Below, in pieces: positions 57,817 through 60,024 of a DNA stretch of 64,000 bases (within the stretch, counting starts at the first letter, position 1; every line of letters starts with the position of its first letter). Origin of the DNA: Planctomycetaceae bacterium. GTDB taxonomy: Bacteria > Planctomycetota > Phycisphaerae > Phycisphaerales > SM1A02. Location: assembly GCA_947490615.1 (NCBI GenBank), contig CANLHK010000001.1, positions 372,001 through 436,000 on the forward strand, given 5' to 3'. The translations under genes were made by a program, and so were the position numbers. Below the pieces are notes generated by a model. That model had not been told where the DNA came from, did not search any database, and was given only the letters and a program-made list of their open reading frames with translations.

Positions 57817-59265
57817 ATGTCCGATCTCTCCGCTTGGACTCTTTCACTCGGCGCCCTTCTTGGTGTGGTCGTGCTCATCATCATGGCTGCGAGGTCGTTC
57901 GCTGGGGAGCCCGCGCGCGGTCGACGGCGCTGCCCGCGCTGCTGGCACGAGCTTGGGCCTGCGAGCGAGAGTTCGTCACGCTTGACCTGTGCCGAGTGCG
58001 GTTTTGCGGCAACTTCGGAGCGCGAGGTCACGCGCAACCGACGACGACTCGGTCGCGCTGCGTTGGCGATCCTTGGCGTGGTCGCCATCGTGGGAGCGAT
58101 GCGGGTTCGACTGCTCGACCGCGGCGCGTGGAGCATGATGCCCACCTCAGTCCTCCTGCTGGCCACGAAACATCTCGGTGAAACCAACACGCACCGTTCC
58201 GCGGGCTGGGAGTTGGTGCAGCGCATGCGCGCAGGCACGATCACGCCCGACTCCGCGCGCGAAGCACTCACACTCTTCATCGAAGGCGACTCTGACGCGC
58301 GTCCGCCCTCAGCAGCATGGCTCACCAAGTACCGCGACCTTGGCATGATCGCGCTCAATCGCGTGGCGAGTGATGATCCTTTGCGTGCGCGGCTTCTTGA
58401 GATCCCGCCGAGCTTCACGATCTCGGCGCTGGCGGGTTGCGCGATCGATGATCGGATCGCGCCGCCACTTCTTGTCGTGGACGCGTTGGTCTTCTGGCCC
58501 AGCGGCGCCGAGGGAACGCTCACGCTCGATTTCGCAGACGGCTCAACGCGCACCGTTGCCTTTCATCCTGACGCGCGACAGACCAGCCTCGTGCTCGACA
58601 TGCCCACGAGCACCAAACCAGGCGAGGCGCTGTCGCTCACGATGCACCACCGCGTGGGTGACGCGTCCACTCCGCTGCGCATCAACATCCCCGTTCCGCC
58701 ATTCAGTCTCGTGCCGAAACTCTCCTGGGCACCGATCGACACGCCTGCCTTGCGCACCGCGATCACGGACGCATTTGCCGATGGACTCACGGTGTGGAAT
58801 GAGGGAGCCCCGCGTGGTGGTCTGCGTTTTGACGCGCGAGTGACTGGCGGCGAGGAGTTCCTCGACACCGCGCTCGGCCTGAGTGTGGAGGTCTGCGAAG
58901 ACGGCGTTCCTCGACGCACAAGCCGACTGTGGTGGAGCGGCGGCGGGCGGATCACGCAGCCGCGGTGGCTTCCGTCGATCGAAGACGCCGACGCGATGGA
59001 GCGACTCCTGAAAGAGGAGAGCGACGAAACGCGGGACGATCGAGGTGGCGCGACGCGCCCGCGGTGGACTCTTCGCATCACAGGCGACGAATCGCTTGCG
59101 CACTATGCGGCGCGCGTGCGCAGCAGTGCCGACGCGGCGCTGCAACTCAGCGCTGCAGAACCGAGCAAGACTTCGTGGTTCAGCGGAACCATCGAAGTCC
59201 CGCTGCGCATCCTGCGGGTGCATGCGCCTCCACCGAGGCGCCGCTGGAAAACCCTAGAAAAGTGA
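57817..59265 (+). CDS. Zinc-ribbon membrane protein of unknown function
   Basis: The protein is 482 residues. It starts with one membrane helix (about 5-25, LSLGALLGVVVLIIMAARSF), then a zinc ribbon CPRCWHEL..LTCAECGF (about 39-62), a second helix (about 78-94, ALAILGVVAIVGAMRV) and a large soluble domain of about 380 residues. That domain contains a helical first part (RSAGWELVQRMRAGTITP) and a beta-rich second part. I do not recognise it. Upstream open frame to 56779 lies inside the permease gene, so ATG 57817 is preferred. It lies 35 bases after the permease gene and could be a partner of the exporter. Confidence 0.68.
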   Translation: MSDLSAWTLSLGALLGVVVLIIMAARSFAGEPARGRRRCPRCWHELGPASESSSRLTCAECGFAATSEREVTRNRRRLGRAALAILGVVAIVGAMRVRLLDRGAWSMMPTSVLLLATKHLGETNTHRSAGWELVQRMRAGTITPDSAREALTLFIEGDSDARPPSAAWLTKYRDLGMIALNRVASDDPLRARLLEIPPSFTISALAGCAIDDRIAPPLLVVDALVFWPSGAEGTLTLDFADGSTRTVAFHPDARQTSLVLDMPTSTKPGEALSLTMHHRVGDASTPLRINIPVPPFSLVPKLSWAPIDTPALRTAITDAFADGLTVWNEGAPRGGLRFDARVTGGEEFLDTALGLSVEVCEDGVPRRTSRLWWSGGGRITQPRWLPSIEDADAMERLLKEESDETRDDRGGATRPRWTLRITGDESLAHYAARVRSSADAALQLSAAEPSKTSWFSGTIEVPLRILRVHAPPPRRRWKTLEK

Positions 59266-59276
59266 GGATTCAGAGA

Positions 59277-59542
59277 CACGCTCCGCGACCCCGTCGGGGA
59301 GGCACCGTACAGGCGCAGGTCGCCACGAATGGCGTCGGTGCGCGCCGAACGGACCAGGGACGAGCGCTCGAACCCTAGTGCAAGGTGGGTTCGGCGTCCG
59401 TCGATCCCGATCTTCCACTCGAGGGCCTGCATGCAGGCTCCAAGGAGGCTTGATCTTCGTCGCGGGAGTCGCCGATCCCTAGGGTCAAGCAAGGTTCGAG
59501 GCGATGTGCCTGGAAGCCAGCCCGAAGGGGTCGCGGAGCGTG
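59277..59542. ncRNA. Candidate structured RNA or MITE-like element with 16-bp terminal inverted repeat
   Basis: CACGCTCCGCGACCCC at 59277-59292 is the exact reverse complement of 59527-59542. Between them lie several nested hairpins: GCACCG/CGGTGC enclosing CGCCA-CGAA-TGGCG (59302-59341), CGCCGAAC/GTTCGGCG (59343-59396), GCCTG-CATG-CAGGC (59425-59438), and CTGG-AAG-CCAG (59510-59520). The ends of a long stem that closes a multibranch fold are what a structured RNA would show. Terminal inverted repeats of a small transposable element would look similar, but no flanking target duplication is evident. It does not match tmRNA, RNase P RNA, SRP RNA or 6S RNA as I know them. Strand is undecided. 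Confidence 0.4.
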
Positions 59543-59712
59543 ACGACGCGAGTGTACCTCCAGACTTTCCAAGACAGGAACTTTGGCAAGATCCCCTGCA
59601 AGATCCCGCGCAAGATGCCCTGCTCAAACCCATGCTCGAACCCCTCACGCGTTGGATTGACAACGCTCCTCGAATCAACCATGATGCGACCCCCTCAAGA
59701 GGAAGATTTCTT
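59543..59712. other. Short-repeat stretch before the small lipoprotein gene
   Basis: No gene is supported. Three near-copies of a 12-base unit CAAGATCCCCTG / CAAGATCCCGCG / CAAGATGCCCTG lie in tandem at about 59587-59622, followed by CTCAAACCCATGCTCGAACCC. It is the leader of the lipoprotein gene at 59713, which has GAGGAAG as its Shine-Dalgarno sequence. Confidence 0.35.
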
Positions 59713-60024
59713 ATGCCGCGTATGACTGCTCTCTCGACTCTGACCTGCACCGCCCTCCTGTTCACGGCTGGCATGACGCTCTGCGGTTGCCAGACGCCTG
59801 ATCCAGATGCGAAGTACAGGACTGACCTTGACTCGCTCGAGGCGGACCTGACCCCCGAGCTCGCCAACACCGCGCAGTCGCATGATGAGCGCCGTATGGA
59901 CTGGGCCGTCAACCGGAACCAGGACCTCCGCAGCGCGAACTCGGACATGGATCGCTTCTGGCTCACCGACAAGCCGCGTCCACTCAGCCCGTACCCAATC
60001 ATGGAAACCGGCGGAAACCCGTAA
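59713..60024 (+). CDS. Small lipoprotein, unknown function
   Basis: The protein is 103 residues. The signal sequence ends in a lipobox, LCGC, with Cys as the lipid anchor (MPRMTALSTLTC.. TLCGC). The mature part is short, hydrophilic, and rich in Asp, Arg, Asn and Pro: TDLDSLEADLTPEL, MDWAVNRNQDLRSANSDMDRFW. No known family. GAGGAAG is 7 bases upstream. The upstream open frame to 59329 is not signal-like, so ATG 59713 is used. The terminator at 60073 closes the unit. Confidence 0.75.
   Translation: MPRMTALSTLTCTALLFTAGMTLCGCQTPDPDAKYRTDLDSLEADLTPELANTAQSHDERRMDWAVNRNQDLRSANSDMDRFWLTDKPRPLSPYPIMETGGNP

Follow-up and report, generated by a model that had tools for sequence, protein, structure and literature searches.

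Sequence analysis of the window (the whole 64-kb stretch of DNA under study) indicates almost certainly that the inverted repeat near its right-hand end belongs to a 6S RNA (ssrS) gene, which occupies about 59542 to about 59277 of the minus strand, and that the repeat forms the closing stem of the RNA. 6S RNA is a widespread bacterial RNA that mimics an open promoter and thereby sequesters RNA polymerase. The element (59277–59542, ∼266 nt, 5′ end near 59542 and 3′ end near 59277) is a structured RNA of a known class, not of a new one, and represents a long and diverged form of 6S RNA. The assignment is based on the Rfam 6S model (RF00013), on the coincidence of Rfam matches with those of a covariance model of our own (R1), and on covariation.

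The inverted repeat and the Rfam 6S model

The left arm of the repeat, CACGCTCCGCGACCCC, was found at 59277–59292 and its exact reverse complement at 59527–59542, with 234 bases between them, confirming the 16-base perfect inverted repeat described in an earlier note on this DNA. Ungapped extension lengthens the arms to 27 nt with 89% complementarity, and every other match to the arms in the window has three mismatches. By rough arithmetic, the chance of a 16-bp perfect match in the 447-bp space at the local GC content is ∼1e-4, in line with the note's view that such a match is improbable by chance. The 266-nt stretch has a predicted folding energy of −153.5 kcal/mol on the plus strand and −144.1 kcal/mol on the minus strand, and none of 200 shuffled sequences was equally stable. 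With z-scores of −7.6 (plus) and −7.1 (minus), the two strands fold about equally well, as had been noted before; our assignment to the minus strand therefore comes from homology and the promoter rather than from folding.

At the gathering threshold, an Rfam search of the whole window detected a single tRNA and nothing at the inverted repeat. In a permissive search of the region, the single convincing match was to RF00013, which aligned over its full model length to the minus strand from 59526 to 59338 (29.4 bits, E 4.7e-4). Since this score is below the gathering score of 46.4, standard annotation misses the 6S gene here. The motifs in this alignment belong to the central bubble of 6S RNA, whose 5′ side holds CUCGAACC and whose 3′ side, facing it, holds ACCCACCU...GGGUUCGAG. 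The earlier note had suggested a new structured RNA of ∼266 nt with a long closing stem and had set aside known abundant RNAs, 6S among them. While structure, length and closing stem are all borne out, the conserved core matches the Rfam 6S consensus, which overturns that exclusion and makes the RNA a divergent 6S RNA instead of a new one.

Orthologues across the order

Covariance model R1 was built without reference to Rfam from a core alignment of 11 near orthologues (A1) and was searched, like the Rfam 6S model, against 101 genomes, comprising 100 relatives and the genome of the window itself. R1 gave exactly one match per genome in 83 of the 101. The Rfam model matched 39 of the same genomes, once each, with seven matches above the cut-off and scores of order-level orthologues reaching 46–69 bits. 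In 37 of the 38 genomes matched by both models the two agreed in contig, position and strand. Thirty-one of these 37 genomes had played no part in the construction of R1, and the 37 include all seven with a 6S gene above the cut-off. This agreement indicates that the element belongs to one orthologous family with bona fide 6S RNAs.

Neither R1 nor the Rfam 6S model matched G061, G066, G070 and G074, four genomes of one genus in the same order that are rated 98–100% complete, which may reflect either loss of 6S RNA or its further divergence. When R1 was searched class-wide, its matches were confined to the order; either R1 is an order-level model, or weaker matches were lost to stricter filters. 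Across the phylum, the Rfam 6S cut-off was passed in 52 of 199 sampled genomes, showing that existing tools can detect 6S RNA within the phylum.

Our literature search found no description of 6S RNA in Phycisphaerae. In other planctomycetes, 6S RNA was reported absent from Pirellula staleyi and Rhodopirellula baltica, according to the passage of PMC5673643 that cites Wehner et al. 2014, and the Rfam search of the Thermogutta terrifontis genome in PMC5673643 found no 6S homologue. In the order studied here, 6S RNA is present in most genomes and mostly hidden below the Rfam cut-off, so absences reported elsewhere may merit a search with a lineage-trained model. The alignment from this analysis could be used for annotating 6S RNA in the order. 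Overall, this is an ordinary, important RNA of a known class in an overlooked, lengthened form.

Consensus structure and extra hairpins

An alignment of 12 full-length sequences from the genus (A2) yielded a rod-shaped consensus of 78 pairs, comprising a closing stem, helices flanking a bubble and an apical arm. In this alignment, 96.3% of the cells were paired, and 19 pairs had pairing-preserving changes on both sides; the covariation values were reached by none of 500 shuffles and were destroyed when the pairing partners were slid. Nine of these 19 pairs fall in the closing stem formed by the repeat and its extension, whose arms change in sequence yet stay complementary, as expected for a stem. 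The earlier note had called for covariation as a check on an RNA, and the double changes, those of the stem included, provide it. Across 47 loci of the order, 91.3% of the cells were paired in an alignment that was fitted to the model and so leans towards it. Here the apical arm was rich in compensatory changes, as exemplified by a pair with G-C in 25 loci and A-U in the other 22. The RNA has the rod with closing stem, large central bubble and apical stem that characterizes 6S RNAs, and covariation supports this structure.

On the minus strand, the right-hand repeat (59516–59542) supplies the 5′ arm of the closing stem and the left-hand repeat (59277–59303) its 3′ arm; together they form the covarying helix 1 of A2 (columns 1–27 with 260–286). 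Within the central bubble, the 5′ side (CCUUGCUUGACCCUAGGGA, 59476–59494) would serve as the template for pRNA by analogy with 6S RNAs (PMC8876501), and its CCUUGC is invariant across 11 aligned orthologues. The apical (internal) arm at 59387–59479, with strongly covarying helices across the 47 loci, presumably acts as the −35-like region. The 3′ side of the bubble at 59370–59392 contains ACCCACCU, matching the Rfam 6S consensus. On this side, an alternative hairpin GAACCC...GGGUUC can form that cannot coexist with the pairing to CCUCGAACC in the ground state, and a local hairpin was predicted there in all 47 loci. In 6S RNA of the E. coli type, the alternative 3′ hairpin forms once pRNA synthesis has opened the adjacent helix (PMC8876501); by analogy, the same switch would occur in this RNA.

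If the RNA works as other 6S RNAs do, it would fold into a double-stranded rod whose open bubble resembles an open promoter for RNA polymerase holoenzyme, and it would sequester the polymerase upon nutrient exhaustion. On outgrowth, the polymerase would use the bubble as a template for a short pRNA, leading to its release, and pRNA synthesis would allow the 3′ side of the bubble to fold into its own hairpin. Expression, binding of RNA polymerase and pRNA synthesis are thus what 6S biology would predict for this gene.

This RNA departs from other 6S RNAs by a lineage-specific insert (59304–59352, minus strand), which adds one or two hairpins to the closing stem on its 3′ strand and was recognized from the inner gap between the closing arms and from the minus-strand fold. 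The 3′-side inner gap measured 29–54 nt in all 13 genus members, compared to 0–1 nt in order-level families f2–f6, and was mixed in other genera of the same family. These gaps come from a duplex-folding search for closing arms that over-extended the outer ends; we therefore kept only the sizes of the inner gaps from it and disregarded its automatic −10 column. Owing to the extra hairpins, the RNA is ∼250–300 nt long in the genus and ∼266 nt here, instead of the usual ∼185–200 nt, and they probably also lower the Rfam score. As no intrinsic terminator was found, our guess is that the insert may contribute to protecting or delimiting the 3′ portion of the RNA. It is rather unlikely that the inserted hairpin has acquired a separate role, for example protein binding or an altered release from polymerase, that would make this RNA work differently from 6S RNAs of the E. 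coli or B. subtilis type. The extra 3′ hairpins are a modest peculiarity of this 6S RNA.

Promoter, alternative readings and gene neighbourhood

Upstream of the RNA lies the −10 box of the 6S promoter, TACACT (59551–59556, minus strand), which all 13 genus members share without change and which stands at a near-fixed distance from the RNA 5′ end (8 nt in the window, 6–8 nt across the 13). Globally, a good −10-like box was found upstream in 40 of the 47 loci, as opposed to 10.4 in shuffled sequence, and a perfect TATAAT precedes the 6S gene in several order-level relatives. A scan of the minus strand at the element returned neither a −35 match nor an intrinsic terminator. With this conserved −10 box and one match per genome, the RNA is encoded by a stand-alone, single-copy gene with its own promoter, in which no −35 element was recognised. 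A separate observation concerns six relatives (G013, G014, G009, G008, G004 and G015), which have a conserved TTGTCAAT box ∼20–21 nt before the −10 box upstream of 6S; this spacing is unusual for a −35 element, and the box is missing from the window's own copy.

The earlier note had also raised a small mobile element, such as a MITE, with the 16-bp arms as terminal inverted repeats, a reading that would fit the perfect arms and the intergenic position. A DNA search of the element's own genome found no further copies, however, and relatives across the order carry one orthologous copy each, next to the same genes within the genus, so that neither the multiple dispersed copies nor the varied insertion sites of a MITE were seen. 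Moreover, the arms change together in a way that preserves pairing rather than sequence, and we reject a mobile element as highly improbable. The chance that the repeat is a transcription terminator, or a fortuitous repeat devoid of RNA function, appears negligible: the element does lie just past the end of a gene at 59265, but no T-run follows a stem, and the element's strong conservation, its covariation and the −10 box dedicated to it all argue for an RNA gene.

A further alternative is an RNA that is related to 6S and binds polymerase but differs from it in function, as does Ms1 RNA of Actinobacteria, which has a 6S-like overall shape (PMC9130861) and binds core polymerase and not the holoenzyme. 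Such a reading would accommodate both the extra hairpin and the score of the window's copy under the Rfam 6S cut-off. We nevertheless consider it very unlikely, given that the conserved bubble motifs of 6S proper are present and that, in order-level relatives, members of this orthologous set score above the Rfam 6S cut-off; the distinction from Ms1 is drawn by these motifs. The RNA shares with 6S RNA (SsrS, RF00013) the closing stem, a central bubble in which CUCGAACC faces GGGUUCGAG and whose 3′ side carries ACCCACCU, an apical arm with small internal loops, its own sigma70-type −10 box and the single copy per genome. It differs in its length, in the one or two additional closing-stem hairpins on the 3′ strand and in scoring below the Rfam cut-off.

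The 6S gene is flanked by a 482-aa gene (57817–59265) and by a small gene of 103 aa with a lipoprotein-like start (59713–60024). Both genes adjoin the RNA in most of the genus, and neither protein matched a Pfam family. A 12-nt unit, GCAAGATCCCCT, occurs in three tandem copies (59586–59621) in the space that separates the lipoprotein-like gene from the 6S promoter. Further along, a good sigma70-type promoter match (TTGACA, 17, CATGAT) is present on the plus strand at 59657–59685, ahead of the gene at 59713 and divergent from the 6S promoter. The planctomycete 6S core and the neighbour genes are also carried by two public MAG contigs titled Limnohabitans sp. (L066) and Candidatus Kuenenia stuttgartiensis (L072), record names that look wrong.
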